Of a DNA stretch of 64,000 bases, positions 5,117-64,000 are shown piece after piece (position 1 is the stretch's first letter; each line of letters opens with the position of its first letter). Source of the stretch: Solwaraspora sp. WMMD406 (lineage in GTDB: Bacteria; Actinomycetota; Actinomycetes; Mycobacteriales; Micromonosporaceae); NCBI RefSeq assembly GCF_029626025.1, contig NZ_JARUBF010000001.1, positions 3,720,001 to 3,784,000 on the forward strand. Direction: 5' to 3'. A program made the position numbers and the translations under genes. Below the pieces are notes generated by a model. That model was not told where the DNA came from, made no database searches, and saw nothing but the letters and a program-made list of their open reading frames with translations.

Positions 5117-5370
5117 TCCGCTCCCGAATGGCGTGTCCGATGATCGACGGTCCGACGGCGAGTCCGGGCCACCTCGATCCTGGACCAGATCGGTCAGTGG
5201 GTAAAGGGGAGGTTGATCACCACAAGATGGTGACTTAATGAGTTAAAAGATGGCATGTCACGTTACGGTCAGTTCCAGGATTCGGCGTACGGCTGCTGGC
5301 CGACCCGACGGTCGAGACCTTCTCTGACCGGTCGGCGCGGTCGGCTGATCGTGGTTGGTGGAGGTCGGTC

Positions 5371-7464: not shown

Positions 7465-7496
7465 TCGCAACGACTGATCGGAGGGACTGATCGGGT
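7445..7496. repeat. Four tandem copies of a 13-base unit
   Basis: The unit CGACTGATCGCAA occurs exactly at 7445-7457 and 7458-7470, followed by two imperfect copies at 7471-7483 and 7484-7496. The ctaD stop codon (7462-7464) falls inside the second copy, so copy-number change would alter the tail of the oxidase. Confidence 0.85.
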
Positions 7497-7794
7497 CGGG
7501 ACGTCGGGGGTGTAGCCATCGATGACGTCGGGTACCCGTATATTTCGTGGGTTCGCGCCGTCGACGCCGGCGCGATGGCGTTTCGGCCCGCCACCGGTCC
7601 ATGACCGGCCGTACGACAAGGGGCGTCCGCGCGCCCGGCGGATGGACGGGCGGACCGTCGGGCGGATCATGGCGTCGGGCGGCCCACGGTGCGGCCGGTA
7701 GCCGCGAAGGTGAACCCCGGACACCGATTCTTCGTTGGTGGGGATATGGCACCGAGGCGGGCGGCGCCGGTGACCATTCGGTGACGGAGGAACA
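7497..7794. other. Intergenic region between ctaD and the phosphatidyltransferase gene
   Basis: About 300 bases without a convincing gene on either strand. Apart from the repeat at its left edge I see no strong hairpin or palindrome. It should contain the promoter of the downstream gene; GGAGG at 7786-7790 is that gene's ribosome binding site. Confidence 0.5.
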
Positions 7795-35900: not shown

Positions 35901-36046
35901 ACCTGTATCTGGTGGGGGTGGCGAACCGGACCCAGCTCGCGGAGGGTCCCTGCAAGGTGGCGCCGACGTCCGGGCAGGTGTTGTCGGAGTCGCGGGTGTT
36001 CCACGACCACGCCACCACCCACGGCGCGGCCCCGACGAAGGGGGGT
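32969..36046 (+). pseudogene. Rhs/YD-repeat toxin gene, 5' half, cut by an IS110-type insertion
   Basis: About 1025 codons from GTG 32969 (or ATG 32978) to the break. An N-terminal Sec-type signal (GRVAVVTVVVVSASLLAAPG) is followed by a Val/Gly/Ser-rich segment and then the typical secreted actinobacterial RHS N-terminal region (WSYGMGVPPVPGGLEPQ, VGLGYSSGGVDGQT, CADDLENPAHYTEANGDLCW). Homology-like sequence ends at THGAAPTKG; the codons after that run into the transposase's 3' flank. The same protein resumes at 39871 (VTRVEQVADFTGGS). This half uses mostly G-ending codons, unlike the 3' half. A fragment ending at about 36166 could still be translated. Confidence 0.85.
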
Positions 36047-37379: not shown

Positions 37380-37540
37380 CAGCGGTCCGCCGACGCCACC
37401 CGGCTCGGCGACAACACCCCCCGGATCATGCGTACGACAGGGGCATTCAGTCATACCGAGCCGGGCGACCGAGCAGTCCCCGGCTGGGGACGATCAAAAA
37501 GACCTCCGATCTCCGGAAGCGTCAAGTCGTCGGTTCGCCG
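37269..37540 (-). other. Non-coding end of IS110 element A, candidate bridge-RNA region
   Basis: 272 bases upstream of the transposase without a gene. In IS110-group elements this side encodes the structured guide RNA. Several complementary GC-rich stretches are visible (for example GCCGGGG and GCCCGGC near 37455-37490), but I cannot fold it by eye with confidence. Confidence 0.35.
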
Positions 37541-39438: not shown

Positions 39439-39864
39439 CTCCTACTCCTCCCTCGCCTGCCCATCGGGCATGCAACCCTGGCGGAAACGCGCGGCGCCCT
39501 AATGACGAGGCTCTGTGGCCTACCCTCCGATGAGCCGTTCGCGATCCCAGCGACCCGCACGGTCCCGGTCTTCGCAGTAAGAGCTCGTCGGCTCCCGGTA
39601 TGCGAGGTGTTCGCCGTGCGGGCGGGCTGCAACCACGATCAACATCCTGCCCAAGGTCACGAGGTGGTCCGGCACCGCCGAGATCCGCCGGTCTTGCACG
39701 AGACCTGACACGGTCCAGAGGTGTGCAGGCGTGAACTCAGCGAGCCGGACCACCACACGAACGACTCGCCGAGCCCACGCTGCCGATCTTTTTGGAGACC
39801 TCAAGGGCCGGGTAACGGGCAGGCATCCCGTGGTCCACGGCGGGCCGTTCGGGATTCATTAGGT
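39439..39864 (-). other. Non-coding region right of IS110 transposase B
   Basis: About 425 bases without a convincing gene, between the transposase and the resumed Rhs coding sequence. It should contain the right end of element B and possibly its bridge RNA. The inverted stretch CCCGTGGTCCACGG near 39827-39840 is the clearest hairpin. I cannot place the exact border with the Rhs gene, which resumes by 39871. Confidence 0.4.
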
Positions 39865-42800: not shown

Positions 42801-43659
42801 AAACAGCCCCAGTCGCTCTTGTGGTCCTGGCAACAGCTTCGCTCCTGGAACACCCGTCCTTCTCGCCAACGGCACCACCAAACCAATCGAACAGATCAAA
42901 ATCGGCGACACCGTCCTCGCCACTGACCCTGAAACCGGCGAGACCGCCCCCAAACAAGTTACCGACACCATCACCGGTCACGGCGACAAGAACCTCGTCT
43001 CCGTCACCCTCCAAACCGGCGACAACGAGCCGACCGCCACCCTCGTCGCCACCGACAAACACCCCTTCTGGGTCCCCGAACTCCAGGAATGGGTCGACGC
43101 GACCAACCTAAAAGCAGGCCAACTACTACAAACCTCGGCCGGCACCTGGGTCCAGATCAGCGCCGTCCGCCAATGGACCGAAACCCGCACCGTCCACAAC
43201 CTCACCGTCGCCGACATCCACACGTACTATGTGCTCGCCGGGGACACGCCCGTCCTGGTCCACAACTGCGGAACGACGGATTTCTTTACGGTCCAGGGTG
43301 CGGATGACGCTGCTCGTCTCGGTTCTGGAGGGCATCCCTTCCCGACCGCGCCTGAGCGAGCGCACTTTGGTCCGGGTGTGTACGCGTGGGGTCGTGAAGC
43401 GGAGGTAGTCGCGTACGCCGCCAACAAGCCGGGCGCCCAAATCATGCGATTCTCCATCGACAACAGAGCGCTGGCCGGGCTTAGGCAAGCGCATCTTGGG
43501 ACGATGTCGGATGATGCGGCGACAGCCTTCATGGAGCAGAATAGCCTCTTGTGGGGCGGCAACGCTGGGCATGGGCTCGACTACATCTCCAGACCCACTG
43601 CCAGGGGAACCGAACACTTCTTTTCATCGGGGATCTTCGACTTATTGGGATTCGGGTGA
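39865..43659 (+). pseudogene. Rhs/YD-repeat toxin gene, 3' half with Hint and toxin tip
   Basis: About 1262 codons resuming at GTG 39871 (VTRVEQVADF). Many YD repeats (YDTWGRIE, YDLLGRRWQ, YDTLGRPTEL) build the shell; the RHS core ends at YDPALGRFISVDP and NGYAYAGNSPISFSDADG (to about 42405). A linker leads to a pretoxin Hint domain (FAPGTPVLLANGTTKPIEQ to LVHNC at 43269) that would self-cleave. The 129-residue tip after it (FGPGVYAWGREAEVVAYA, IMRFSIDN) looks like an ADP-ribosyltransferase-type fold; this is a weak call. Codons end mostly in C. Cut off from its signal sequence by the IS110 insertion, so secretion is doubtful. Confidence 0.82.
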
Positions 43660-49946: not shown

Positions 49947-50798
49947 TCAGGCCGCGGTGATCAGCCGCAGCGTCTCGTCCAGGTAGCGGCGCGACGCCAG
50001 CAGCCGGGGATGCGGATCACCGGTACCGCAGTACTCCACACTCACCGCGTCACAGCGTCCGGAGTCGACCAGCGAGCGCAGCCAACGATGGTTGTCCACC
50101 TCGCCGCCGGCGGCGTCCACCGAGAAGTCCGCCACGCCGCCCCGAACCACGCAGTTCTTGAGATGGAAGTAGACCGGCCAGTCGTCGAGCACACCGAGGA
50201 TCCCTGGTTCGCGGTCGGCGACACTCAACGCCGCCGCGTTGCTGGGGTCGACGGTGACGGTCATCCCGGGACGGTCGACGCGGCGCAGCAGCCGGGCGGT
50301 CGCCGCCGCCGTGTCGTGCACCGTGTTCGGATGGATCTCCACCCCGATCCGGACACCGCGGCCGGCGGCGTGCTCGGCCACCTCCTGGTAGGCGGCCGCG
50401 ACCCGGTCGTAGTCGTCGTCGGTGGCGATCGCGCTGCCGTTGCGCCGCCAGTCCTCGTCCCACCGTGCGGCGTCGTGCACCAGCCAGCCGCCGGAGCCGT
50501 TGATCATCGGCACGCCGGTCGCCGCGCACGCGTCGATGATCGAACGGACCCGATCGATGGTGGCCCGCCGTACCCGCTCGTCCCGGTCGGCGAACATGCC
50601 CCAGTAGCCGGCGCATTCCACCGCCAGGCCGGCCTGCCGGGCCTGCTCGACCGCCCGGACCAGCTCCGCGCCCGGATCCGCGCTGTCGAAATGGCAGGCG
50701 GCCAGCTCGACCGCCGGCCAGCCCTGTAGCCGGGCCACCCGGAACACGTGCTCGCGCGGATAGTCGCGCAGCGCGTAGCTGTGCAGCACGGGCCGCAC
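49947..50798 (-). CDS. TIM-barrel sugar isomerase/epimerase
   Basis: 283 aa from GTG 50798, one base after the upstream stop. Xylose-isomerase-like fold: SYALRDYPREHVFRVARLQGWPAVELAACHF, metal ligands in VEIHPNTVHDT, TVTVDPSNAAAL and YFHLKNCV, and SVEYCGTGDPHP at the end. Related to IolE/inosose dehydratases and sugar epimerases. Last gene of the minus-strand operon; with the oxidoreductase upstream it resembles an inositol-type oxidation/epimerisation pair, which would suit a cyclitol substrate. Confidence 0.87.
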   Translation of the reverse strand: MRPVLHSYALRDYPREHVFRVARLQGWPAVELAACHFDSADPGAELVRAVEQARQAGLAVECAGYWGMFADRDERVRRATIDRVRSIIDACAATGVPMINGSGGWLVHDAARWDEDWRRNGSAIATDDDYDRVAAAYQEVAEHAAGRGVRIGVEIHPNTVHDTAAATARLLRRVDRPGMTVTVDPSNAAALSVADREPGILGVLDDWPVYFHLKNCVVRGGVADFSVDAAGGEVDNHRWLRSLVDSGRCDAVSVEYCGTGDPHPRLLASRRYLDETLRLITAA

Positions 50799-50799
50799 G

Positions 50800-51843
50800 T
50801 CAGCGCCCCGACACCGGGGCCAACGCGGCGGCCGTCCCCACCTGGATCGGTACCGGCCCGGTCGCGGTGGCGGCGACGTCGGCGATCGCGTACAGGATCT
50901 CCACGTCGGTGACACCGCGACGCAGGCTCAATTCCGGCGGTACGGGCGCACCGGCGGCGCACGCCATCAACGTCCGGTACTGGCTGACGTACGGGTCGAC
51001 GGTGACCAGTTTGGACTGGTGCCAGCCGGTGCCGTTGCAGTAGTCGACCGTACCGCCGCCGTTCATCGCCCAACCACCGTTGACCTGCAAGATGCCCTCG
51101 GTGCCCACGAGCGAGTAGCCGGACACCTCGGCCGATGCCGGTTGCTGGTCGAAGGTGAACGACGTCTCCAGGTGCAGGTACCGCTGGTCGTCGAACCACA
51201 GCGTCGCCTGCGCGTACAGCTCGGTGCGTTCTGGATCGTCGATCGGGTACGCGGTGGCCTGGCAGCGCACCGGGTCGGCGCCGAACAGGTCGACCGCCGT
51301 CAACACCGGGTAGATGCCGAGATCGGCCAGGCAGCCCAGCCCGCCCTCGCTGCGCCGGCCCCGCCAGTCGTACTTGCGCCACCCCAGCCGGGCGGCGACC
51401 ATCGCCCGCGGCTCGCCGATCGCGCCGGTCCGCACCAGCCGCGCCGCCTCGATGTTGGCGGCGTTGTGCTTGGCCATGTAACCGACCAGGGCCGTGGTGC
51501 CGGTCTCGTCGGCGGCCTCGGCGATGGCCCGGGCCGACTCGACCGTGTGCCCCAGCGGCTTGTCGACGATGGTGGGAATCCCGGCGCGCAGGGTCCGCAG
51601 CGCGTACGGCTCGTGCAGGTGGTTCGGGGTGGCGATGTGGACCGCGTCGAACCCGGTGGCGAAGAAGCGTTCCACGTCGGTGGTCAGCAGCGCGTCGGGG
51701 CAGAGGTCGGCCACCGACCGCAGGGCCAGCGGGTCCGGGTCGAGCACCGCCGCCACCCGGGCGTCCGGCATGGCGGCCAGCGCGGGGGCGAGGGCGATGC
51801 GGGTGAGCGCGCCGGCTCCTACGATGCCGATCTGGTAGACCAT
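50800..51843 (-). CDS. Gfo/Idh/MocA-family oxidoreductase
   Basis: 347 aa; ATG with AAGGAG seven bases upstream. N-terminal Rossmann fold (IGIVGAGALTRIALAPAL), conserved HIATPNHLHEPYALRTLRAG and the active-site EKP-like segment PTIVDKPLGHTV with the catalytic lysine. NAD(P)-dependent oxidation or reduction of a sugar or cyclitol hydroxyl. Overlaps the upstream glycosyltransferase by 25 bases. In a C7-cyclitol context it would adjust the oxidation state of the ring. Confidence 0.9.
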   Translation of the reverse strand: MVYQIGIVGAGALTRIALAPALAAMPDARVAAVLDPDPLALRSVADLCPDALLTTDVERFFATGFDAVHIATPNHLHEPYALRTLRAGIPTIVDKPLGHTVESARAIAEAADETGTTALVGYMAKHNAANIEAARLVRTGAIGEPRAMVAARLGWRKYDWRGRRSEGGLGCLADLGIYPVLTAVDLFGADPVRCQATAYPIDDPERTELYAQATLWFDDQRYLHLETSFTFDQQPASAEVSGYSLVGTEGILQVNGGWAMNGGGTVDYCNGTGWHQSKLVTVDPYVSQYRTLMACAAGAPVPPELSLRRGVTDVEILYAIADVAATATGPVPIQVGTAAALAPVSGR

Positions 51844-53342
51844 TGCATGCTCCTTCCAATCGATGCTGCACTGATCGACGACGATGGACTGCGGTGGGTG
51901 GTGGCGGGGACGGCGACGGCGGCATCGGCTGCCGGTTGCCGGGCCCCGTAGAGGACGTGGGTGCCGGCGTTTCCGGCGGTGTCGCTGGCGCTGGCGGCGA
52001 GGTTTCCGGCGCTGCCGGCGATGTTGCCGGCCAGGTGTCCGAGCAGAGCGTCGAGACCGTCACGCAGGCTGTCCCAGCGCCGGTCGGCCAGCGCCGGCAG
52101 GTCGTCCCGACGGTGCGGGCGGGCCGCCGGCCGGTCGCCGCGCCAGCGGCGCAACACCCGGCCGAGCAGGTCCAGCCCGACGCGGAGCTGACCGGCGTGC
52201 CCGTCGAACAGCTGTGGCAGTGTCCCGGCGTCGGCGGCGGCCCGCAGCATCTGGTAGCCGAACGCCACCTCGTCCGGGTTGATCAACACACCGGTCCCGC
52301 CGCCGGCCCAGGACAGCCGGGTCTGGCACCACGCCCCGTCGGACCAGTGCAGGACGTGCAGTCCGGGTGCCAGCACCCCCGCCCGGGACAGGGCACCGGC
52401 CAGCCAGGCGTGGTCGTACCCCCACGCGTACTGCTGCGATCTGGTGGCCCCGGGAGTGTCCCGTGCTTCGTCGGCGACCAGCGCGGCGGGCACGGACCAC
52501 AGCTCGCCGAGTCGGGACAGCATCGCCATCGCCAGCATGTCCTCGCTGCTGCCGTACGGTGTGTCCGGGTAGAACAGCGGACCCCGCCGCCGTACGTGGT
52601 CGAGGACCGGCGCCTGACGGGTCAACAGGCCGACGGTCCTGCCGGTGACCAGGGAGCCGAACGCGGTCACCGACAGCAGGTCGTACCGTCCGTCGTGGAC
52701 CGCCCCGGCCAGCCGCCGTGGCCGGCCGTGGCCGGCCGTCGCACCGCTTGCCAGCCACTGGCCGGGGTCGGCCACCGGCACCACCCGGGGGCAGGCGGCG
52801 ACGGCCCGCGCGGTCCGGTCCAGGACCCCGGTCAGCGCGGGCAGCGCGTCCGGTGCCAGCGCCGTGTCGTCGTCGAGGAACAGCAGGTGGCGCCGGCGGA
52901 CCGGCGAGCTGTCCGGCAGCGCGGCCAGCGCGTCGAGCCCGGCGTCACGGGCGGCCGCGGCGGTGTACCGCGACCGCCCGCCGATCGACCGGGCGGTGCC
53001 GGCGGCGGTGGCGTCGACGATCAGGTACGGCCGGCCGGTGCCGGCCAGGTAGCTGCCGATCTGCCCGGCGGCGGCAGCGGTCAGCCCGTTGTCGACGACC
53101 ACGAACGAGACCGGCCCGGTGGCGGAGCGCGCGACGCTGTCCAGACACCGCCGTAGCCTGGCCACCCGATCGCCGACGACCGGCGAGTAGGTCGGCACCA
53201 GCACGGTCACCCCGTCCGCCGCGCCGTCGCGGTGGCTGGCGGCACCTCCGCCGCCGGCCACCGCTGCGGCCGGTCCCGCGTCGCCGGCCACCGCTGCGGC
53301 CGGTCCCGGCCGACACATCAGCTGGAAGTATGTCGGGTCCAT
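51819..53342 (-). CDS. GT2-like glycosyltransferase
   Basis: 507 aa. GT-A fold with VTVLVPTYSP, FVVVDNG and the metal motif LLFLDDDTALAPDA; later GSSEDMLAMAML and the trailing helical region. No membrane segments are obvious. The N-terminus has a duplicated peptide (PAAAVAGDAG / PAAAVAGGGG) from a 30-base tandem repeat at 53253-53308, and the C-terminus is Ala/Ser-rich. It likely adds a sugar to the cluster's product, before or as it is exported by the ABC system encoded next to it. Donor and acceptor unknown. Confidence 0.82.
   Translation of the reverse strand: MDPTYFQLMCRPGPAAAVAGDAGPAAAVAGGGGAASHRDGAADGVTVLVPTYSPVVGDRVARLRRCLDSVARSATGPVSFVVVDNGLTAAAAGQIGSYLAGTGRPYLIVDATAAGTARSIGGRSRYTAAAARDAGLDALAALPDSSPVRRRHLLFLDDDTALAPDALPALTGVLDRTARAVAACPRVVPVADPGQWLASGATAGHGRPRRLAGAVHDGRYDLLSVTAFGSLVTGRTVGLLTRQAPVLDHVRRRGPLFYPDTPYGSSEDMLAMAMLSRLGELWSVPAALVADEARDTPGATRSQQYAWGYDHAWLAGALSRAGVLAPGLHVLHWSDGAWCQTRLSWAGGGTGVLINPDEVAFGYQMLRAAADAGTLPQLFDGHAGQLRVGLDLLGRVLRRWRGDRPAARPHRRDDLPALADRRWDSLRDGLDALLGHLAGNIAGSAGNLAASASDTAGNAGTHVLYGARQPAADAAVAVPATTHRSPSSSISAASIGRSMQWSTRSAS
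53253..53308. repeat. 30-base tandem duplication in the glycosyltransferase N-terminus
   Basis: The segment beginning GCCGGCCACCGCTGCGGCCG at 53253 is repeated at 53283, giving two copies of PAAAVAG in frame. Confidence 0.75.
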
Positions 53343-53350
53343 CGCCTGAC

Positions 53351-54172
53351 CTACTGGTAACGGCTGATGAAGCCGCGCCGCTGGAACGTGCGCAGCATGG
53401 CCGAGGTGAAGACCAGCGCGAGCGTCATGAACACCACGGTCGCGAACGCCGCGACACCCAGCTGCCCCCAGGTCGCGCCGTCACCGGTCATCGCCGCCCG
53501 AGCCGCGTCGAACACGTACCGGGGCGGCAGCAGCGCCGACAGCGGCTGCAGGAAGCCGGGCAGCACGCTCGTCGGATACAGCGCCCCGGACAGCGGCAGG
53601 ACCACGAACAGCAGCCCCCAGACGAGCGCCTCGGCGGCCGCGCCGAAGCGCAGCACCAGGCCGATCACGACGAACGCCAGCGCCCAGCCGTTGAGCAGCA
53701 ACAGGGCGATCACCGGCAGGATGTCCAGCCCGATCGGTGCCAGGTCGAACCCGTACAGCACGACCGCGGCGACCGTGACCGAACTGACCCCGATCACCAC
53801 CTTGAGCATTCCCTGCAGCGCGGTGCCGGCCAGCCATTCGACCGGTCGCAGCGGGGTGGTCAGCAGACTCGGCAGCTGGCGCGACCACGCCTCTTCGTTG
53901 AACCCCGACGAGACCGCGATCTGCGCCTGGTAGACGACGTGCCACATGATGATGCCGGCGATGACGGTCAGCGCGGTACGGGTGGCACCGGTGGGTGCCT
54001 GCTGTTGCATGAACAACGCGATCGAGCCGTAGAGCACGGCGTCGACGACCGGCCAGACGACCATGTCGAACAGGCGCGGCGGGTTGCGCAGGGTGACGTG
54101 GATGTGCCGGCTGGCCACGGCGACGGTACGCCGTAGCGACGCCACCGGCGGACTCAGAGTGGTAGCGGTCAC
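53351..54172 (-). CDS. ABC-2 type permease
   Basis: 273 aa, GTG start, about six membrane helices. ABC-2 signature region SGFNEEAWSRQLPSLLTTPLRPVEWLAGTAL and a late helix GALYPTSVLPGFLQPL. Partner of the ATPase encoded four bases upstream on the same strand. Together they should export the cluster's product, giving producer self-protection. Confidence 0.9.
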   Translation of the reverse strand: MTATTLSPPVASLRRTVAVASRHIHVTLRNPPRLFDMVVWPVVDAVLYGSIALFMQQQAPTGATRTALTVIAGIIMWHVVYQAQIAVSSGFNEEAWSRQLPSLLTTPLRPVEWLAGTALQGMLKVVIGVSSVTVAAVVLYGFDLAPIGLDILPVIALLLLNGWALAFVVIGLVLRFGAAAEALVWGLLFVVLPLSGALYPTSVLPGFLQPLSALLPPRYVFDAARAAMTGDGATWGQLGVAAFATVVFMTLALVFTSAMLRTFQRRGFISRYQ

Positions 54173-54176
54173 GGGG

Positions 54177-54944
<768 letters not shown>

Positions 54945-54973
54945 CGTCGTGCTCCTTTCGCTGGTGCCGACCA

Positions 54974-55678
54974 TCAGGTCGGCTGTTGACGTGATTGCGC
55001 GGCCGTCGCCGACGCCGTGGCCGTCGCAGGCTTGGCTGTCGCCGACGCCGTGGCGGGCTGGGCCGTGGCCAGATTCGCCAGCAGCACGCCGACCTCGGCC
55101 AGGGTGGATCGGCAGGCGTCGGCCTGACTCAGTTGCACCGGCCGGTGGGTGGTGGTCACCGCGACGACTCGGCAGCCGGCCGCCCGGGCGGCGGCCACCC
55201 CGTGCGGCGCGTCCTCGACGACGACGCAGTCCTCGGGCGCCACGCCGAGCCGTCGCGCCGCGAGCAGGTATCCGTCCGGTGCCGGCTTGCCACGCTGGAC
55301 GTCTTCGTCGAAGACCGCCACCGGCGGCGGTGGCAGGCCGGCGGCGCTCATGCAACGCCGCACGAACCACTCGCTGCCGGAGGTGGCGATCGCCCACGGC
55401 ACCGCCGGCAGCGTCCGCAGGAGCGCGGCGGCGCCGTCGACCGGGCGGACCTGGCCGATCCTGGCCAGTACGGCGTGGTCCAGCGCCGCCCGTTCCCGAT
55501 CCGGGTCCAGGTGGGGCGCGACGGACCGCAAGGTGTCCGCGCTGCGCCGCCCGTACGTCTCGACCAACACCGTGGCCGGGTCCAGGCCGTGTCGCAGCGC
55601 CCAGTCACGCCAGATGTCGGCGAACAACGCGCCGGTGTCGAGCAGGACTCCGTCGACGTCGAACAGCACCGCGCGCAT
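54974..55678 (-). CDS. HAD-superfamily phosphatase / phosphoglucomutase-like
   Basis: 234 aa from ATG 55678, behind GGAGG. Motif I VLFDVDGVLLDTG (nucleophile Asp), motif II AIATSGSE, motif III Lys in RGKPAPDG, motif IV VVVEDAPHGVAAA. Belongs to the beta-phosphoglucomutase/sugar-phosphatase subfamily; C7-cyclitol pathways use such enzymes to move or remove the 7-phosphate. The last 40 residues are an Ala/Thr-rich repeat (ATASATAKPATATASAT). One base separates it from the PGI-like gene. Confidence 0.9.
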   Translation of the reverse strand: MRAVLFDVDGVLLDTGALFADIWRDWALRHGLDPATVLVETYGRRSADTLRSVAPHLDPDRERAALDHAVLARIGQVRPVDGAAALLRTLPAVPWAIATSGSEWFVRRCMSAAGLPPPPVAVFDEDVQRGKPAPDGYLLAARRLGVAPEDCVVVEDAPHGVAAARAAGCRVVAVTTTHRPVQLSQADACRSTLAEVGVLLANLATAQPATASATAKPATATASATAAQSRQQPT

Positions 55679-55679
55679 G

Positions 55680-57359
55680 TCAGCCTCCATCCGATGTGGG
55701 GTGTTCGTCGCCGTGGCTGTGGCCGTGGCCGTGGCCGTCACCGTCCGATCGGGTCGTCCCGGTGGCCGACACCGTGACCAACAGGCTCCGTCCGGCCAGG
55801 CTGCGGTGGGTGGCGGCCGCCACGTCGTGCAGCGCCTGCGAGGTGGCCCGCAGCGGATCCGTCGCGTCCGGTGCCGGGCCGGGGCCGGCGTCGACCACGA
55901 CGACCGCGGTGTGCGGATCGGGAAAGACCGCCTGAAACGAGTGGTGGTTCCAGGCGGGTCCGGTGTGGACCTCGCACCGGCGTCCGGTAGCGGCGGCGAA
56001 CGTGGCTGCCGACGGCAGGCGCTCGACCTGCCCGTACGCCACGACGTGCAGCCGGTGGATCCCGCCGCGGTCAGCCAGCCAGGCCGCCGCCAGTTGGGGC
56101 AGCGCCGCGCCGGTCGCCGCCGCGCCGAGCCCATCGGCGTCCCGGCGGCCGGTGTCGGCGGCCGGCTGCCCGGACGTCACGCCGAGCAGGCGCTTGTACG
56201 CGGTCACGTTGGTGTGTTCCACCGGCCGTAGTCCGGCCCGTAGCGCCAGGCAGGCGACGAACACCCCGGCGGTGTACATGGCGGACATCAGCCCGGCCAG
56301 TCCGACCGGATGTCGGTCGAGGTCGAGGACGACGTCCGCGTCGCCGGGGTCCGTCGCCTCGACGCGCGTCGGACCGGTCGCCACGTCCACCCACGGGCGG
56401 AACGTCGTCGACTTGCCGCACAGCACCTGGCGGCCGAGTTGCGTGAGCCACCGCCGCAGCCCGTCGCCGGCCCAGCGTGGTGGCACCAGCAAGATCCGGA
56501 CCGTACCGGTGACCGGTGCCCGGACGGCGAGCGCCGCCGCCCGGGCACCGAGACTCCGGTGGTCGCGCAGCAGGTCGCCGTACGCCGCCGGCAGCTGGTC
56601 CGGTGCGGTCAACGCGGCCGGGACCAGGAAGCCGGTGGACAGCGGAGCTCCGAGCATCGCGACATGCTCGGGGTCGCCGCCCGGTGCCAGTGGGAAGGCT
56701 CCCGGCCCGGCCCGGTCCCGCAACCAGACCACCGGCCGGTCCGTCCGGCCGGTCAGCGCGGGTGTCACCCGCGCCAGGTGGCTGGTCTCCAGTGTGCCGC
56801 CGGACGCCGAGATGGCCAGGTACGCCGACGGGGCGTGGTCGGATCGGTGGCCCACGGCGGCGCGGATGGCCTGCGGACGCAGGTCGTCGAGCACCCGTAG
56901 GTCCCGTTGGCGGGTGGGCAACTCGGCGACGGCCTGTGCCGCGAAGCTCCACCCGCCGGTGCCGAGCACCAGCACGCCGCCGGGCCACGGTCCGGCGTGG
57001 TCCGCGCGGCCCGTCAGGCCCGCGCGCACCGCCGCCACCGTACGGGCGACCTCCGGCCAGGCCGCCGGGGTGACCCAGCCGAGCCGGGGTACGCCGTCGA
57101 GCACGCACCGTTCGGTGATCAGCCGGGCAGCGGCGACGCGTCGGTCCGGGGCGACACGTCGATCCGCCACGCTCTCGCGTCCGGTCGAGGTGTCCGGGCC
57201 GGCCGTCGGCGCCGTTGCCGCCGCTCGCCGCACCGCTGACCACAGCTCGCCGGCGGACAGCTCCGCCAACGCCGCCGACTCGGTGGGCGGCGCGGCGGTG
57301 CCGGCGGGCCGCCGCCCGGTGGTCGTCCGCTCGATGGTCGTCCGTTCGACGGTCGTCAC
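55680..57359 (-). CDS. Phosphoglucose-isomerase-like SIS protein
   Basis: 559 aa, GTG start overlapping the previous gene. The sugar-isomerase fold is visible as VLVLGTGGWSFAAQAV (residues 132-138 form the phosphate loop) and SASGGTLETSHLA (184-192), matching the SIS motif of glucose-6-phosphate isomerase; EHTNVTAYKRLLG and GPAWNHHSFQAVF follow. Overall identity to normal PGI seems low, and the C-terminus ends with a His/Gly tail (HGHGHSHGDE). It could isomerise the sugar phosphate fed to the cyclase, or have been recruited to another step. Coupled to both neighbours. Confidence 0.78.
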   Translation of the reverse strand: MTTVERTTIERTTTGRRPAGTAAPPTESAALAELSAGELWSAVRRAAATAPTAGPDTSTGRESVADRRVAPDRRVAAARLITERCVLDGVPRLGWVTPAAWPEVARTVAAVRAGLTGRADHAGPWPGGVLVLGTGGWSFAAQAVAELPTRQRDLRVLDDLRPQAIRAAVGHRSDHAPSAYLAISASGGTLETSHLARVTPALTGRTDRPVVWLRDRAGPGAFPLAPGGDPEHVAMLGAPLSTGFLVPAALTAPDQLPAAYGDLLRDHRSLGARAAALAVRAPVTGTVRILLVPPRWAGDGLRRWLTQLGRQVLCGKSTTFRPWVDVATGPTRVEATDPGDADVVLDLDRHPVGLAGLMSAMYTAGVFVACLALRAGLRPVEHTNVTAYKRLLGVTSGQPAADTGRRDADGLGAAATGAALPQLAAAWLADRGGIHRLHVVAYGQVERLPSAATFAAATGRRCEVHTGPAWNHHSFQAVFPDPHTAVVVVDAGPGPAPDATDPLRATSQALHDVAAATHRSLAGRSLLVTVSATGTTRSDGDGHGHGHSHGDEHPTSDGG

Positions 57360-59521
57360 CGGGCACCGTCCCAGGCCGGGAGATCGCCAGCGGTCATCCG
57401 TCGCACGGAGTGGCCCCGCTCACTCAGGTCCACCACGACCCGCAACGCCGGCTCGCCCCCGAGTCGTCCGGTGACGGTCAGCTCGTCGAGCACCGCTGGC
57501 GCGGCGTCCAACGACACCACGTGGCTGATCAGCGGGGCGAGATCCAGCGTTCCGCCGGCGTCGGTGAAGCTCGCCTGGATCGCGGCCTGGAAGTCGTCCC
57601 GGTCGGCGCCGCGTGACCCGACGAGGACCGCCTCGCCGCCGCCCGGGAGCCGGACCGGCTGCCGCACTCCACGGCTGCGGATCGGTTGCGCCGGCAGACC
57701 CTGACCGTCCGGGGTCCGGATCACCGCCCCGGGCAGGAACCCGCCGTACAGGTGGACCGAGGCGCCGGGAGCGAGACACGGCCACAGGGTGGCGAGTGTG
57801 CGCGGGCCGGTGTCCCCGCCGGTCGTCATGATCACCGCGTCGGCGCCGGCGCCGCCGGTGCGTGCCGTGACCCAGCCGGCGAGCCGGTCGTCCAGCGTGG
57901 CGCAGTCGACCGCGTCGATCACGCCGCGATCGATGGCAGTGACCAGTCGGCCGGATCCCCGGTTGGCCAGCAGCACCTGGTCGGCGCCCCACCGCCGGGC
58001 CAGTAGCACGTGCAGCAGGCCCGACACACCGGCCCCGATGACCAGGACCCGTCGACCCTTCCACTGGTCGTGCTCACCGGCGAGGCGCATCGACCGCACC
58101 GTGCAGGCCAGTGGCTCCACCAGCACGCCGGCCGCCGTCGGTGCCGTCGGCAGCTCGATCAGCTGCCCCCGGGCGGCGAAGTGGCTGTCCCAGACCGCCA
58201 CCTGCCGGAACACTCCCGGCAGGTTGTGGCCGAGCTTGTCGTGCTCGTCGTACGGATGGTTCGGATTGACGGTGAACACCGAGCCGACCGCCGGATCGGT
58301 GACGTCCGCGCCGACCTCGACGATCCGGCCCACGCACTCGTGGCCGAGCACGCCCGGCTCACATCCGCGCTCGCCGCGCAGGATCTGCAGGTCGGTGCCG
58401 CAGATGCCGGCGTACGAGATCTCGGCGACGAATTGTTCGCGCCCACACCGGGGTCGGTCGTAGCCGCGCAGCGACACGCCGCTCGCCCCGATCGGTTTGT
58501 GCAGTTCGCGGGCCCGGTCACCGAGGCAGTCGAGGAACCGGCCCATGCCGATCAGGCTGTCGTCGTCGTCGAGCGAGGGTGAGACCAGCGCTTCGACGTC
58601 GCTGGCGGTCCAGCCGGTGAACCAGCCGCCGGTGGGCAGCAACTCCCGCAGGTGGGACCGCAGCGCGGCGAACCACGGCTCGCCGACTCCCCGGGCGAAC
58701 CCGCCCATGACGACGACCTGCCGCAGGCCCAGCTGCGCCGACAGCTGCAGCAGGTAGAGCGCCAGCGGCCGGGTGGCGGTGGCCAGCACCGCGGTGGTGA
58801 ACGCGTCGCCGTCGTTGGCGGCGGTGGCGATCGCCTCGGCCGTGATCCGCTCGGGATCCCCGGCGGTGATGGTGGCGAGCGTGGACGCCCGCCATCCGGT
58901 CGGGTCGGCGGTGGCCTGCCGTACCGTGGCGCGGACCGTGGCGGGTCCGCCGACGTACGAGCAGAGGTCGCCGGTGTTGCCGCACTCGCACCACGGCAGC
59001 TGCGCCGCTGGTGGCCCCGAACTGACCGGGACGTGTCCGACCTCGCCGCCCAGCCCGTCGGCGTCCTGCACCAGCTTCGACTCGATCGGCAACGCGTCGT
59101 CGAACACCTTGACGGCGACGCCGGTGCTGATCGTGACCAACGCGAACCGGCCCAACCGCCGGTACCGCCACGCCGCCGCCGCGATGTCGTTGGCGATCTC
59201 GATGGTGGCCCAGTCGAGCCGCTGACGCAGCGCGGCGGCCAGGTCGAATCCGGTGCTGGGTTCGTGCCAGAGCATGCTGGCGTTGCGGACGACGCCACCG
59301 GAGTCCACGGTGGCGCCGATCGCCACGCCGACGCGACGCAGCCGGTCGGGGTGGCTGGCCCGCAGCCGGTCGACCTCGGTGGCGATCCGGTCGAGGTGCC
59401 GGTCCCGCGCACCCAGTTTCGGGGTGGGGAAGCGCACCGTGCCGGGCAGCAGCGCACCGTCGCGGTGGACGCCGATCCGGGTGGTCGTTCCTCCGATGTC
59501 GACCACGATGCTGGCGGTCAT
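57356..59521 (-). CDS. ROK-family kinase fused to zinc-dependent MDR dehydrogenase
   Basis: 721 aa. Residues 1-335 are a ROK sugar kinase: DIGGTTTR (8-15), catalytic Asp112 in ANDIAAAA, and the zinc site with His163, Cys178, Cys180 and Cys187. Residues 345-721 are a medium-chain dehydrogenase: Cys374 in AGICGTD, GHECVG (393-398), cofactor motif GAGVSG (496-501); the structural-zinc cysteines are missing. In acarbose- and validamycin-type pathways the cyclitol is phosphorylated by a ROK kinase and oxidised by a dehydrogenase; here both are in one chain. Overlaps the cyclase and PGI-like genes by four bases on each side. Confidence 0.9.
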   Translation of the reverse strand: MTASIVVDIGGTTTRIGVHRDGALLPGTVRFPTPKLGARDRHLDRIATEVDRLRASHPDRLRRVGVAIGATVDSGGVVRNASMLWHEPSTGFDLAAALRQRLDWATIEIANDIAAAAWRYRRLGRFALVTISTGVAVKVFDDALPIESKLVQDADGLGGEVGHVPVSSGPPAAQLPWCECGNTGDLCSYVGGPATVRATVRQATADPTGWRASTLATITAGDPERITAEAIATAANDGDAFTTAVLATATRPLALYLLQLSAQLGLRQVVVMGGFARGVGEPWFAALRSHLRELLPTGGWFTGWTASDVEALVSPSLDDDDSLIGMGRFLDCLGDRARELHKPIGASGVSLRGYDRPRCGREQFVAEISYAGICGTDLQILRGERGCEPGVLGHECVGRIVEVGADVTDPAVGSVFTVNPNHPYDEHDKLGHNLPGVFRQVAVWDSHFAARGQLIELPTAPTAAGVLVEPLACTVRSMRLAGEHDQWKGRRVLVIGAGVSGLLHVLLARRWGADQVLLANRGSGRLVTAIDRGVIDAVDCATLDDRLAGWVTARTGGAGADAVIMTTGGDTGPRTLATLWPCLAPGASVHLYGGFLPGAVIRTPDGQGLPAQPIRSRGVRQPVRLPGGGEAVLVGSRGADRDDFQAAIQASFTDAGGTLDLAPLISHVVSLDAAPAVLDELTVTGRLGGEPALRVVVDLSERGHSVRRMTAGDLPAWDGAR

Positions 59522-61842
59522 CGCACACCTCCCACGGTACGGACCCGGTCACGCAGCTCGGCGCAGACCGTGCGCAGCAGATCGACCGGCACGTCGTCGA
59601 GCGAGTCGATGAACTCGCCGACGCCGATCGCGCTGGGGACGACCAGATGCAGCTTGCCGCCCTTGTGGGGCACGACGTCGTCGCGCAGCTTGCGCCAGAG
59701 CAGGTCCGGGTCGCACGCGTCGTCGTGGATGGGTAGTCCGGCGGCCTGGAGCAGATCGAGCAGTCGGTCCAGATCCGACCAGGACAGCTGGCCCAGGTGG
59801 GCGGCGATGGCCGACGACAGGGCCATGCCGATGGCGACGGCCTCGCCGTGCCGCAGCCGGAACCGGGTCACCGCCTCGAGCATGTGTCCGAACTCGTGGC
59901 CGAAGTCCGGCAACCGGCGTAGCTCCTCCTCGAAGGGGTTGGCTTCGAGTTGCCGCAGCATGGTGGAGATCGAGCCGTCGAGCACCGCCCGTACCTGCGG
60001 GGTGTGCACCCCGGCGGCCAGGTCGCCGTGGTGCTGCTCGATAAGCTCGAACAGCGACTTGTCGCAGACGACGCTGATCTTGATCGCCTCGGCGAGGCCG
60101 CACCGCAGTTCCGCCGCGCTCAGGGTGCGCAGGAACTCGGTGTCGCAGACGCAGGCCAGCGGTGGGTGGTAGGCGCCGAGCAGGTTCTTGTGGCCCCTGA
60201 CGTTGACGCCGACCTTGAGCCCGATCCCGGCGTCGATCATCCCGACCAGCGTGGTCGGGATCCGGACGTACGGGGTGTCGCCGTGGTACAGGTAGGCGGC
60301 GTATCCGACGATGTCCAGCACGGTGCCACCGCCGACGACGAGGATCCGGTCGTCGCCGCCGAGGCCCAGACCTTGTGCGGCGTGCAGCACCCGGCCGACC
60401 TGATCGAGGGTCTTGGCCCGGTCCGTGGCGCGGACCGGCACGATCGTGAACCGGGACAGGTAGCCGTGCGCTTGGTAGCGGGCCAGCAACCGGTGCACGG
60501 TCGCCAGCTGACGCGGGGTGTACGGGTCGACCGCGACCAGCGCTTGTCCGCCCGGTGGCAGCAGATCGGCCAGTGCCCAGCTCTCCGGGTCCATCAGCCG
60601 GTCGGCGAAGCGGACCGGGAAGCTGGCCGGTACCTGTATCTGCGAACTCGCCCGGGTCACCCGCCCCGACCGCGGCTCGCTGCGCAGCGGGTGCCGCTGT
60701 GCGCGCGACCTCCTTCTGGCCCAGCCGCTGTCGGGCACCGCTGGCAGCCCGGCCAACGTGGTCGTCAGCAGGGTCCGTTCCACGGCGACGAGCTCACCTC
60801 CGTCACCGTCGGTGGGCAGCGGCACCGCCACCGTGCCGCCGGCCACCGCGTTGCGGCTCGCCGACCAGCGCAGCACCGCCGCGCTGTCCGGCAGGGCGGT
60901 CAGTACGTCGCCGGCGATCTCCGGGTGCAGGGCGGTGGCCGTCCCGGTCAACCGCCGCAGCGCATCGGTGCCCAGCACCCCGATTCGGTGCGCGACCCGC
61001 GCGGCGAGCAGGATCGACCAGATCCGGCGCAGGTGCGCCGGTACGGCCGCCGGAGCCAGCGCGAGCCAGTCGGACCCGAGCCGCCACATGGCCTGTCCGG
61101 GTCCGATCCGGTCGACCAGGCGGACGACCGCGGCGAGAGCCTCGGCGCGGGCCTGGTCACTGGCGACGCCGTGCTGCGCCATCCGGTCCAGCACCTGGCC
61201 GTCGAGCGTGCCGAGGAGCAGCGTGGTGGCGTTGTCGGCGGCCCGAGCCGGGACGTCCGTCGGGCGGTGGGCGAGAACGGCGCGTTCGTCGACGATGACG
61301 TGGCTGGCCCGCTGCAGGGCGCTCACCGGTGCGTCGCTGAGCCCGACGCGGACGCCGTGGCCGACGGCCGCGACCGTGGCGGCGAGGTCGTGGTGGACCC
61401 GCAGGGCCGGCGTCCACCGGCGGTACGAGGCGGCGGCGACCGCGACGATCTCGCCGATGCGCGCACCGCCGACGGCCAGGAAGACGTCCCGGCGGCCCAA
61501 CTGCGCCCGGGTCGCCGCCTCGACGACGTCGTCGCAGGCACCGAGTCCTTCGGCGTCCTGGTCGGTCGCTTCGACCAGCAGGTAGTCGTCGAGCCGGCCG
61601 GCCGCGCGGGCGGCCTGGAGATAGTCGGTCAACTGCCGGGCCCGCGTCCCGGCCATCGGATCCAGGACCACGACGAGCCGCCGGGCGGGGCCCCACGCCG
61701 CCGCGAGCACGTCGTCGCCGGGGGCGAACAGGTCCGGTGCCACGTCCAGCCGGAACGACGCCGTGACCTGGGTCCGCAGACACATCAGTTGGTCGTCGAC
61801 GGCGGGGGTCGGTGTGTGGTGGGCCGATCTGATCGGGGTCAT
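59518..61842 (-). CDS. Tandem sedoheptulose-7-phosphate cyclase, first half degenerate
   Basis: 774 aa from ATG 61842, behind GGAGG. The second half (about 400-774) is a complete dehydroquinate-synthase-like cyclase: GGGTVLD (504-510), TPYVRIPTTLVGMIDAGIGLK, KNLLGAYHPP, metal ligands Glu585, His649/His653 and His665. The pattern is that of 2-epi-5-epi-valiolone-type synthases, which use sedoheptulose 7-phosphate and NAD. The first half (about 20-370) follows the same plan (LVVVLDPMAGTRARQ, VFLAVGGARIGEIVAVAA, a closing PLPTDGDGGELVAVERTLL) but lacks the metal site and glycine loop. Product assignment within the family is inference. Confidence 0.88.
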   Translation of the reverse strand: MTPIRSAHHTPTPAVDDQLMCLRTQVTASFRLDVAPDLFAPGDDVLAAAWGPARRLVVVLDPMAGTRARQLTDYLQAARAAGRLDDYLLVEATDQDAEGLGACDDVVEAATRAQLGRRDVFLAVGGARIGEIVAVAAASYRRWTPALRVHHDLAATVAAVGHGVRVGLSDAPVSALQRASHVIVDERAVLAHRPTDVPARAADNATTLLLGTLDGQVLDRMAQHGVASDQARAEALAAVVRLVDRIGPGQAMWRLGSDWLALAPAAVPAHLRRIWSILLAARVAHRIGVLGTDALRRLTGTATALHPEIAGDVLTALPDSAAVLRWSASRNAVAGGTVAVPLPTDGDGGELVAVERTLLTTTLAGLPAVPDSGWARRRSRAQRHPLRSEPRSGRVTRASSQIQVPASFPVRFADRLMDPESWALADLLPPGGQALVAVDPYTPRQLATVHRLLARYQAHGYLSRFTIVPVRATDRAKTLDQVGRVLHAAQGLGLGGDDRILVVGGGTVLDIVGYAAYLYHGDTPYVRIPTTLVGMIDAGIGLKVGVNVRGHKNLLGAYHPPLACVCDTEFLRTLSAAELRCGLAEAIKISVVCDKSLFELIEQHHGDLAAGVHTPQVRAVLDGSISTMLRQLEANPFEEELRRLPDFGHEFGHMLEAVTRFRLRHGEAVAIGMALSSAIAAHLGQLSWSDLDRLLDLLQAAGLPIHDDACDPDLLWRKLRDDVVPHKGGKLHLVVPSAIGVGEFIDSLDDVPVDLLRTVCAELRDRVRTVGGVR

Positions 61843-61901
61843 CCCGTCACCTCCGTGATCTGGCGCTCGCCGGGCCGAGAACCGGCAGCGGCCCGGCCGG
61901 G

Positions 61902-63374
61902 TCAGGCATCGGCCGGCCCGGACGTGGCGTCGTCGACCGACTTCGTCAGCAGCTCGATCAGCGGCGTGCGGGGCAGGCAGTTCTCCAGCCGGAAGGACCG
62001 CATCATCTCGTCGATGTCGCTCTCGGTCATGCCCCGGAACAGTTCGCCGAACTCCGGAAGCATGGCCTGGGAGAACAGGGTGTGCGGGATGAGCCGGTTG
62101 ATCTGGAAGTCGGCCCCCCACGGGAACGGGCACCAGTCGGGGAATTCGCGCGCGATGACAGCCCGTACCGGTTCCAGCACGTCGGCGATCCGGGCGAGGT
62201 CGCCGCCCCACAGGTCGACGGCGAGTCGGGCTTTCTTCTCCACCACCGGTCGGATCCGACGCATCCAGAGGCTGTCGGCGGCCACGGTCAACGGCGACAC
62301 CACGCCGATGTCCTTGTACCCCCAGTACACCCAGCTGGCCTGGTGCTTGTCGTAGATGTCGAGCTGGTCGGCCAGCAGATTGAGTCGCATCTGGTCCAGT
62401 TCGGCCTCGCCGGTGAACACCGCGTTGAATTCGCCGACGACGATCGGCGTACCGGTCTGCTGCATGTAGTCCACCCGGTCGAGGAAGCCACCTTCGACCG
62501 CCGCCTTGTCCCAGAACTGCACCGGCGGCTCGGCCGTGGCGCCGCTGCCTTCTTCCGGCGCGACGACGTGCATCAGCTCGAACGATCCCGGGTAGCGGCT
62601 ACCGGGCATGAATCCGGGCGGCGGGTAGTCGTGCGGCGAGTAGATGACGTTGGGCATCGGCTCGCCGAAGAAGTGGAAGTCCATCGCGTACCGGTTGCCG
62701 TCGAGGAAGATGATGTGCTTGTCGTCGACCTCGCGAATGGTTTCGACGAGCCGCCGGTATACCGGGCCGACCCGCTTGGCGGTGGGGTCGGCCGGCTCGT
62801 TGAGCGGGTTGTAGCCGATGACCCAGGGCTCGTCGCGGTAGTGCGTGGCGATGGCCCGCCACAGGTTGGCCACCCGGTCCTGGAAGTGCGGGTGCCGCCA
62901 GAAGTGGGCGACGTGGGTGGGGTTGTCGGAGTGCCAGTCTTGGTTCTGGTAGCCGGGCACCGCGTGCAGGTCCAGCATGGTACGGATGCCGTGTCGCGCA
63001 CACAGCGCGATGACCCGGTCCAGGTGACGGAAACCGTCCGGCTTGATCTCGAATGGCCGGTCGTCGCTTTCCAGGAACTTGTAGTGGAACGGTATCCGGA
63101 CCAGATTGATGCCCAGTGACGCGAGGTAGGCGGCGTCGGCTTCGGAGAAGAAGTTCTCGATGAACCGCTCGTAGAAGTATGTGGTGAGGTCCGGCCCGAG
63201 CACATGGCGGATCGCGGTTTCCTGGCCTTCCTCGTGGCCGGGGAAACCGGTGATCCAGTTCTCCATCAGCAGCCATCCGGCGAGCCCGATTCCACGGAGT
63301 ACGACCGGGTCGCCGTTGTCGTCGACGATGTGCGAGCCACTCACCTTCAGGAACGGCGTGTGCTTCGTTGACAT
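61902..63374 (-). CDS. GH5-family glycoside hydrolase, no signal peptide
   Basis: 490 aa; ATG with AGGAGG upstream. TIM-barrel cellulase-type enzyme: GIGLAGWLLMENW, LGINLVRIPFHYKF, acid/base Glu193 in YNPLNEP and nucleophile Glu315 in VVGEFNAVF. It has no secretion signal or carbohydrate-binding module, so it acts inside the cell. First gene of the ten-gene operon, 59 bases before the cyclase. It may release sugar or process the glycosylated product. Confidence 0.9.
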   Translation of the reverse strand: MSTKHTPFLKVSGSHIVDDNGDPVVLRGIGLAGWLLMENWITGFPGHEEGQETAIRHVLGPDLTTYFYERFIENFFSEADAAYLASLGINLVRIPFHYKFLESDDRPFEIKPDGFRHLDRVIALCARHGIRTMLDLHAVPGYQNQDWHSDNPTHVAHFWRHPHFQDRVANLWRAIATHYRDEPWVIGYNPLNEPADPTAKRVGPVYRRLVETIREVDDKHIIFLDGNRYAMDFHFFGEPMPNVIYSPHDYPPPGFMPGSRYPGSFELMHVVAPEEGSGATAEPPVQFWDKAAVEGGFLDRVDYMQQTGTPIVVGEFNAVFTGEAELDQMRLNLLADQLDIYDKHQASWVYWGYKDIGVVSPLTVAADSLWMRRIRPVVEKKARLAVDLWGGDLARIADVLEPVRAVIAREFPDWCPFPWGADFQINRLIPHTLFSQAMLPEFGELFRGMTESDIDEMMRSFRLENCLPRTPLIELLTKSVDDATSGPADA

Positions 63375-63643: not shown

Positions 63644-64000
63644 ATGAGTATCGATGCTGCTCTGGTGACTACGGCGGCGGTGCGACTGACTACGGTGGCG
63701 GTGCGACTACGCCCCAGGACGGTGGCCCTCGCCTGGTCGGAGTCCCGCCCGCTGGTGCAGGCCATGTTCCAGCTGCGGTTCATGGTCGCGGCCGTGCTCG
63801 CGGTCGCCGCCAGCGGGCTCAGCGTCCACCCGGCGCGGCTGGCGGCGGCGGCGGTGGCCTGGCTCTGTGCGACGTGGCACGTGTACCTCCTGAACGGCGT
63901 CAGTGATCGGGTCGCGGATCAGGCGAACGCCTCGCGCCGACCGGTCGCGTGTGGTCGGTTGCCCAGCGGCCACGCGACCGCGCTGCTGTCGATTCTCGCC
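63644..64000 (+). CDS. UbiA-like prenyltransferase, N-terminal part
   Basis: 119 codons to the window edge, no stop. ATG 63644 follows GGAGG. After a short N-terminal tandem duplication (TTAAVRL/TTVAVRL) come hydrophobic helices and the signature NGVSDRVADQANASRRPVA, the N-x3-D-x3-D-type metal and pyrophosphate motif of UbiA enzymes, with RP and G following as usual. It transfers or cyclises a prenyl chain in the membrane. Divergent from the GH5 operon. Confidence 0.75.
   Translation, partial: MSIDAALVTTAAVRLTTVAVRLRPRTVALAWSESRPLVQAMFQLRFMVAAVLAVAASGLSVHPARLAAAAVAWLCATWHVYLLNGVSDRVADQANASRRPVACGRLPSGHATALLSILA

Follow-up and report, generated by a model that had tools for sequence, protein, structure and literature searches.

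What does a compact row of ten genes produce when it places an atypical sugar phosphate cyclase beside a kinase, dehydrogenases, putative isomerases, a glycosyltransferase and an exporter? The question is raised by positions 49947-63374 of a 64,000-nucleotide stretch of Solwaraspora sp. WMMD406 (contig NZ_JARUBF010000001.1, positions 3,720,001 to 3,784,000; hereafter the window), which are filled by ten minus-strand open reading frames (ORFs). The answer favoured here, with modest confidence, is that the operon makes an exported, non-aminated C7-cyclitol (pseudosugar) glycoside via a sugar phosphate cyclase lineage in which no characterised member was found. As C7 cyclitols gave acarbose and validamycin, a conserved and compact cluster family of this kind could give a new scaffold.

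The gene row and its conservation

In order of transcription, the row comprises the following genes, from GH5 to the TIM-barrel isomerase:

61902..63374, minus strand: GH5 beta-glycosidase, cytosolic, 490 residues, first gene of the operon (Pfam Cellulase, 8.5e-32; E193 and E315 retained)
59518..61842, minus strand: tandem cyclase, 774 residues, of which about 1-395 are a degenerate cyclase-like half and about 396-774 a sugar phosphate cyclase of a separate clade (Pfam DHQ synthase)
57356..59521, minus strand: ROK kinase (residues 1-330) fused to a zinc-type medium-chain dehydrogenase (ADH; 331-721) (Pfam ROK, 2.2e-18; ADH_N, 1.5e-10)
55680..57359, minus strand: two-SIS protein like phosphoglucose isomerase (PGI), 559 residues, with an altered active site (fold and profile match, motif comparison)
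54974..55678, minus strand: HAD hydrolase or mutase of the beta-PGM/YfbT kind, 234 residues (Pfam Hydrolase, 9.4e-24; NCBIfam PRK11587, 1.5e-40, under its cut-off; family scans made on the longer ORF 54974-56134)
54177..54944, minus strand: ABC exporter ATPase, DrrA/NodI-like, 255 residues (Pfam ABC_tran, 5.2e-23; NCBIfam drrA, 2e-40, under its cut-off; family scans made on the longer ORF 54177-55397)
53351..54172, minus strand: ABC-2 permease, 273 residues (Pfam ABC2_membrane, 1.5e-11; four hydrophobic stretches at the chosen threshold)
51819..53342, minus strand: GT2-type glycosyltransferase, up to 507 residues (Pfam Glyco_tranf_2_3, 9.7e-07; no membrane segment at the chosen threshold)
50800..51843, minus strand: Gfo/Idh/MocA oxidoreductase, 347 residues (Pfam GFO_IDH_MocA, 1.3e-17; in 11 of 11 loci)
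49947..50798, minus strand: xylose-isomerase-like TIM-barrel isomerase or epimerase, 283 residues (Pfam AP_endonuc_2, 3.2e-22; in 11 of 11 loci)

A first-pass annotation of the window had described ten minus-strand genes with gaps of at most 59 bases and repeated four-base overlaps. Its map is right apart from some starts, and its family assignments agree with Pfam, the PGI-like protein being placed by fold and profile instead. The nine junctions span -25 to +59 bases (GH5-cyclase +59, cyclase-ROK/ADH -4, ROK/ADH-PGI -4, PGI-HAD +1, HAD-ABC ATPase +29, ATPase-permease +4, permease-GT2 +8, GT2-Gfo/Idh -25, Gfo/Idh-isomerase +1), such that four-base overlaps are present, at two of the nine. Start sites judged likely from the upstream sequence are 61842 for the cyclase, 50798 for the isomerase, 54944 for the ABC ATPase and 55678 for the HAD protein; the first, the most likely cyclase start, yields 774 residues instead of 897. 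The reported absence of an aminotransferase also holds, as aminotransferase families have no Pfam match in any of the ten genes; the closest aminotransferase-type gene observed codes for a PabC-like enzyme of class IV and lies in a separate block, some 8 kb to the right.

Eleven loci were compared: that of the window, one in genome G304, one each in Micromonospora sp. KC606 and Actinoallomurus soli, and seven in Plantactinospora. The first four, representing four genera, carry all ten genes in the same order (protein identity 43-80% in the other ten-gene loci), and because this order recurs in other genera, the row is more than a chance neighbourhood. That the operon forms a family spread over several genera had not been noticed in the first-pass annotation. 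A six-gene core (GH5, cyclase, ROK-ADH, PGI-like, Gfo/Idh and isomerase) is present in six Plantactinospora loci and is complete in 10 of the 11 loci, including that of G304, whose GH5 match consists of two overlapping pieces in different frames and whose GH5 gene may thus be shifted or mis-sequenced. GT2 occurs in 5 of the 11 loci; one of them, in P. alkalitolerans (L030), has the core and GT2 in its row and a HAD gene nearby. The P. alkalitolerans genome concerned (G396) carries two copies: L030, a seven-gene row with a shortened cyclase N domain and PGI-like protein, and L025, a four-gene row without GH5 and ROK-ADH, in which the cyclase, PGI-like, Gfo/Idh and isomerase genes are all that is found of the core.

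A family-wide search with the 774-residue protein matched 16 of 200 genomes at E <= 1e-50, eight of them (that of the window included) at <= 1e-110, while a contig scan based on GH5 yielded P. endophytica, P. mayteni, P. alkalitolerans, Micromonospora sp. KC606 and A. soli; a contig scan by the tandem cyclase alone returned 47 pattern matches, of which none was confirmed. Six of seven Plantactinospora genomes were matched, as was one of seven in the genus of the window at 1e-60, namely its own genome. Plantactinospora belongs to the order Micromonosporales and A. soli to Streptosporangiales. A class-wide cyclase search at 1e-60 matched 2 of 394 genomes, that of the window and one with an EEVS-like cyclase; an order-wide search with the PGI-like protein matched 1 of 298, again that of the window, although four candidates were scored per genome and absence is therefore weak, and the same protein had no match on plasmids. 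Such a patchy distribution would fit horizontal transfer of the cluster. In Micromonospora sp. KC606 (L097, positions 5664-7693), transposase-like and recombinase-like ORFs, read by eye, lie less than about 7 kb from the cluster GH5, which is consistent with mobility.

The tandem cyclase

By sequence comparison, the cyclase is a tandem protein whose N-terminal half is itself a degenerate and shrinking cyclase, a feature overlooked in the first-pass annotation. The C-terminal half (residues 396-774) matches ValA (4p53) first, at 2.9e-68, and DDGS (5tpr) at 3.1e-51, ValA being the closest solved structure at 39-40% identity. By fold of the predicted model, ValA again comes first (VIA Z 39.6, root-mean-square deviation (rmsd) 2.8, 348 residues aligned), with DDGS tied (Z 39.2, rmsd 3.2, 370 aligned). 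The metal ligands E585, H649 and H665 are retained in 11 of 11 cluster cyclases, and the active site is mixed in all 11: M628, D646 and E667 are as in ValA and EEVS, whereas C581, H653, G672 and K727 stand where ValA has N, P, D and R. Cys581 replaces the Asn of both ValA and DDGS, as it does in the cyclases of loci L031 and L060. At sites 628 and 646, which correspond to K250 and N268 of A. nidulans DHQS, Met and Asp occupy all 11 cluster rows whereas Lys and Asn occupy both AroB rows; EboD has His at the former site, and the Met of the cluster enzymes indicates that they are not of the EboD type. These positions were chosen from the present alignment rather than from the 14-site cyclase fingerprint mentioned in an excerpt of PMC4426668, and K727 was dropped as a DHQS feature because the AroB rows align poorly there. 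In a tree of 30 cyclase rows, from which three short rows (L033, L035 and L036) were left out, three EboD rows form a separate clade (100/100). A further branch (100/100) joins the cyclases of L031, whose genome belongs to the same family as the window, and L060, from Streptomyces sp. NBC_00467; these carry Cys581 and Gly652-Pro653 and are possibly of the 2-epi-valiolone type.

The N-terminal half is homologous to the C-terminal half (hhalign 97.7%, E 1.7e-12, 338 columns), and in the window's own row of their alignment E585 and H649 lie opposite gaps and H665 opposite Ala. This half measures 385-395 residues in the four ten-gene loci, but its length is 287-342 in six of the Plantactinospora loci and 181 in P. 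alkalitolerans; when all 11 rows are used, its alignment with the C half is limited to the first 137 columns, which argues that the putative metal-binding part was lost first. The ratio of nonsynonymous to synonymous substitution rates (dN/dS) in six pairs was 0.41-0.65 for the N core and 0.29-0.42 for the C half, values that come from plain Nei-Gojobori counting in DNA of very high GC content and are intended to say only 'below 1'; the N half is therefore retained for something. No weight was given to the missing 'GVN' string of the N halves, since GVD stands at that place in several C halves. Sugar phosphate cyclases are dimers, and many DHQS chains align to the tandem model across roughly residues 16-770, which places the N domain's first strand with the C domain. 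This model, of moderate confidence (mean pLDDT 68, pTM 0.67), suggests that the N domain may be a built-in dimer partner, and the N-half series, which runs from 395 to 181 residues across loci, offers a natural series on that role.

The PGI-like protein and the kinase-dehydrogenase fusion

A second feature that had been overlooked concerns the PGI-like protein, which matches no Pfam family at 1e-3 nor at 1, and which, as far as its sequence tells, descends from an actinomycete PGI type while missing canonical catalytic elements. Its AF2 model (mean pLDDT 70) matches PGI 7ntg over model residues 85-399 (VIA Z 21.5, rmsd 3.2, 297 aligned), giving a two-SIS PGI fold; a profile search of solved sequences found PGI 1zzg over about 100 residues (6.1e-6), and a profile of the PGI type of about 549 residues, which we take to be that of actinomycete tal-pgi-zwf operons and of which the same genome holds a copy elsewhere (L081), matched over 428 columns (hhalign 96.6%, E 6.5e-10). 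There was no match to a profile of a small set of canonical PGIs (probability 1.2). The sugar-phosphate loop SG.T.ET is kept in 10 of 11 rows (A. soli being without it) and the lysine of [NA]V..YK in all ten full-length rows. The catalytic residues of PGI are the Glu of [AM]ES.GK and the Arg of GGRYS. The GGRYS loop is missing in the six cluster rows shown; in all ten full-length rows Gln replaces the AESTGK Glu (RQ for AE) and WNHHS[FY]Q stands where the ordinary enzyme has FLHSTGQ. With its catalytic elements so altered, the protein is not an ordinary isomerase. It is under constraint, with dN/dS of 0.31-0.38 in five Plantactinospora pairs and 0.70 between the window and G304. The P. alkalitolerans protein comprises the first SIS domain only, the next gene overlapping its end; its match to a 'D-sedoheptulose 7-phosphate isomerase' family was rejected as too weak (E 0.00077, 19 bits against a cut-off of 320). 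As PGI chemistry proceeds through an enediol at C1-C2 of a 6-phosphate, one may guess by analogy at a 2-epimerase acting on a cyclitol 7-phosphate; the TIM-barrel isomerase is a rival for this step, and a non-catalytic role of the PGI-like protein is possible. The altered PGI also offers a testable example of how secondary metabolism may take over an enzyme of central metabolism.

The ROK kinase and the zinc ADH share a single open frame in 10 of the 10 loci that have them. In a ROK tree, the cluster ROK half groups with nine ROKs of other cyclase loci (100/99); two further ROKs encoded by the window's own genome, both long branches, fall outside this group. Among 15 other cyclase loci searched at 1e-8 (L031-L040, L058, L060, L061 and the ebo loci L063 and L064), ROK homologs lie near nine, zinc ADH near six and HAD near four, the two EboD loci having no ROK, ADH or HAD match nearby; in six control stretches at 1e-6, ROK, ADH and HAD were matched in none, an ABC ATPase in two and a response regulator in one. 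In acarbose biosynthesis, AcbM is ROK-like, AcbO is an epimerase and AcbL leads to valienone 7-phosphate, as excerpts of two papers describe the pathway (PMC9200736; PMC7081202). A distant echo of the core is seen on plasmid pC6.5b of Rhizobium rhizogenes (L061, positions 3836-7353), in which cyclase, ROK and TIM-barrel genes are adjacent and a short family 1 glycosylhydrolase ORF lies beyond.

The GH5 enzyme

The best PDB chain for GH5 is 9ku5, a 'putative beta-xylosidase GE32' (6.7e-90), and its NEP and GEF motifs are invariant in 7 of 7 aligned rows, meaning that both catalytic glutamates are retained; hydropathy reveals no hydrophobic segment or export signal. GH5 was rejected as a cluster-specific marker, as 11 of 16 GH5 loci have no cyclase, ROK or PGI-like match nearby. 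These cyclase-free loci belong to Thermogemmatispora, other Chloroflexi, a planctomycete and Naasia, and hold two weak ADH matches and one ABC ATPase match; four of the eleven are shorter than 9 kb.

Proposed route and alternative explanations

The gene content and order, the conservation, homologies and clade, and the active-site states are observed; the substrates, products and order of steps of the following route are what we infer for the operon. The C-terminal cyclase domain would cyclise a ketose phosphate, for which sedoheptulose 7-phosphate is the likeliest candidate, giving a keto-cyclitol, while the degenerate N-terminal domain would serve as a built-in dimer partner without a second active site. 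The ROK domain would phosphorylate C7 and the fused dehydrogenase would work on the same intermediate, following the logic of AcbM plus AcbL within a single chain. Either the PGI-like protein or the TIM-barrel isomerase might carry out C2 epimerisation or isomerisation, the role of AcbO in acarbose, after which the Gfo/Idh protein would reduce a ketone, the HAD protein would remove or move the phosphate, GT2 would add a sugar and the ABC pair would export the product. The cytosolic GH5 could cleave a beta-glycoside for self-protection, recycling or trimming. Of the features of a C7-cyclitol cluster, the kinase and dehydrogenase families are present and the cyclase falls in a clade with no characterised member among those compared; of those of a C7N-aminocyclitol cluster, neither an aminotransferase nor a pseudoglycosyltransferase family is matched in the ten genes. 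The C7-cyclitol logic proposed in the first-pass annotation is supported by the ValA-nearest cyclase, the ROK grouping, ADH, HAD, GT2 and the ABC exporter, and by the lack of an aminotransferase in the ten genes; its naming of a sedoheptulose-7-phosphate cyclase of known type is not supported, given the separate clade and mixed active site.

Several observations weigh against the C7-cyclitol glycoside. The 11 cluster proteins form their own clade in the cyclase tree (99/96), and 12 EEVS-like and two DDGS rows group without them (92/90). The cluster cyclases share His653 and Gly672 with two AroB and three EboD rows, while Pro and Asp occupy these sites in 14 of 14 EEVS/DDGS-type rows, and Asp646 and Glu667 are common to EEVS and EboD alike. 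Because of the separate clade and of His and Gly where EEVS and DDGS have Pro and Asp, neither sedoheptulose 7-phosphate as substrate nor a valiolone product is assured, and '2-epi-5-epi-valiolone' would be a guess. The ten cluster ROKs carry a C.CG...C motif that is missing from the nine ROKs of other cyclase loci, and the ADH tree, in which long branches meet, provides no tie of the dehydrogenase half to other cyclase loci. Five of the six Plantactinospora loci with the six-gene core have no match to GT2, HAD or ABC in the row, from which it follows that glycosylation and export are not core functions. GH5, found in 10 of 11 loci and hence near-core, has no place in the C7 pathways consulted in the literature. 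Finally, no nucleotidyltransferase or pseudoglycosyltransferase family was matched in the ten genes (Pfam).

The leading alternative is a new cyclase type that converts sedoheptulose 7-phosphate or another ketose phosphate to a cyclitol other than 2-epi-5-epi-valiolone, 2-epi-valiolone, DDG or dehydroquinate, with the operon tailoring that ring. We regard this alternative as less likely than the favoured reading. It draws on the clade and on the active site mixed throughout it; moreover, AcbO is of the VOC kind, and the ten genes contain no VOC-type match. The same His and Gly occur in EboD, another uncharacterised lineage as described in an excerpt of PMC5133447. Against it, the cluster cyclases agree with EEVS in their metal ligands and in Asp646, Met628 and Glu667, ValA is the closest solved structure, and the branch that excludes the cluster from EEVS and DDGS is below the level starred by the tree tool; the tree included no row known as EVS, DOIS, aminoDHQS or animal EEVS, such that a nearer known relative could be missed. 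A bolder form, in which the cyclase is a new functional type that forms a pseudo-dimer within a single chain, its partner domain being dead, and yields an undescribed cyclitol, and in which a PGI was rebuilt as a cyclitol-phosphate epimerase for the AcbO step, is rather doubtful. In any case, the lineage, in which no characterised member was found, provides a new test of product choice by sugar phosphate cyclases.

The remaining explanations appear less compatible with the row. GH5, ROK, Gfo/Idh and TIM-barrel isomerase genes are common in catabolic operons, and GH5 might free a cyclitol or sugar from an imported glycoside for degradation by the kinase, dehydrogenases and isomerases; the near-core standing of GH5 and a solute-binding-protein gene in G304, the second beyond the divergent UbiA-kinase-regulator block, would fit such a utilisation operon, but a ring-forming cyclase has no evident catabolic place, the transporter within the operon is of the ABC-2 exporter type and no importer family is matched in the ten genes (Pfam), which together make it improbable. 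It is very improbable that the cluster is a known one with a known product outside the literature covered: coverage was sparse for subscription papers and MIBiG was not included, yet no such cluster is described in the titles and abstract starts among the matches listed, and a search for Plantactinospora together with cyclitols found no paper. Scarcely any credence is given to an extra shikimate-type operon whose cyclase makes dehydroquinate, the case that the first-pass annotation had named as its refutation. Although His653 and Gly672 recall the two AroB rows, the genome also encodes a distinct AroB, in which sites 628 and 646 are the Lys and Asn of DHQS and not the Met and Asp of the cluster enzymes, and no further shikimate gene is found among the ten. 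The non-aminated C7-cyclitol glycoside remains the favoured product.

Neighbouring genes

Beyond the first gene of the operon lies a divergent block, which begins within the window:

63644..64000, running past the window, plus strand: divergent UbiA prenyltransferase (Pfam UbiA, 8e-31), followed by a histidine kinase/response regulator pair

All three of these genes are found again in G304; UbiA was dropped as a core part, as its match is confined to the window's own locus and G304 among the 11 loci. The block (L004, positions 644-9029, plus strand) continues with an MbtH-AMP-ligase protein, two small ORFs, a PabAB-like and a PabC-like protein; the PabAB-like chorismate enzyme and PabC-like lyase suggest a putative p-aminobenzoate supply. 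PabAB, PabC and the MbtH-AMP ligase were left out of the cluster, having no match at the chosen thresholds in the other loci (stretches of about 20-35 kb). Elsewhere in the window, an apparent Rhs-type repeat protein is divided between two ORFs (32969-36166 and 39721-43659, translations read by eye), the second with an intein-like stretch; they are separated by minus-strand transposase-like ORFs (36063-37454 and 38197-39438) and a methyltransferase-like ORF.

Comparison with known systems

The first-pass annotation had called the arrangement unfamiliar, and indeed no described cluster with this gene set is among the literature matches listed, MIBiG not being included. The acarbose cluster of Actinoplanes sp. 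SE50/110 (acbC, acbM, acbO, acbL, acbN, acbJ), compared by description only and from excerpts, resembles the row in its cyclase, ROK-like 7-kinase AcbM, AcbL dehydrogenase-like protein, phosphatase and glycosyltransferases; unlike it, the present row has no aminotransferase, a fused kinase and dehydrogenase and a tandem cyclase of another clade, and adds the PGI-like protein, TIM-barrel isomerase, Gfo/Idh protein and cytosolic GH5. The cluster on plasmid pF1D18A of Streptomyces clavuligerus (NZ_CP065235.1, L058) likewise combines ROK, cyclase, ADH, HAD, a glycosyltransferase and a transporter, the first four of which match the cluster proteins by sequence; it differs in its separate ROK and ADH genes, a cyclase of the EEVS-like group, a DegT aminotransferase, a 6-phosphogluconolactonase, a ribulose-phosphate 3-epimerase and a major facilitator superfamily (MFS) transporter, and it has no GH5, PGI or GT2 match with the cluster proteins.

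Among single proteins, the validamycin EEVS ValA (4p53) is the best match of the C domain in sequence and fold and shares its metal ligands and the Met, Asp and Glu at 628, 646 and 667, but has Pro and Asp for the His and Gly of the cluster, and its solved chain of 420 residues holds one cyclase domain. The PGI type of about 549 residues matches the PGI-like protein along its full length by profile; the cluster protein differs in being without the GGRYS loop, in having Gln for the AESTGK Glu and in having WNHHS[FY]Q for FLHSTGQ. Lastly, the ebo operon (EboC UbiA, EboD cyclase, EboE TIM barrel), as known from an excerpt, is alike in having a separate cyclase lineage and a xylose-isomerase-like TIM barrel, and a UbiA gene adjoins the cluster in the window and in G304, with no UbiA match in the other nine loci; EboD nevertheless forms its own clade (100/100), and beyond the cyclase no cluster protein matches the ebo loci L063 and L064.

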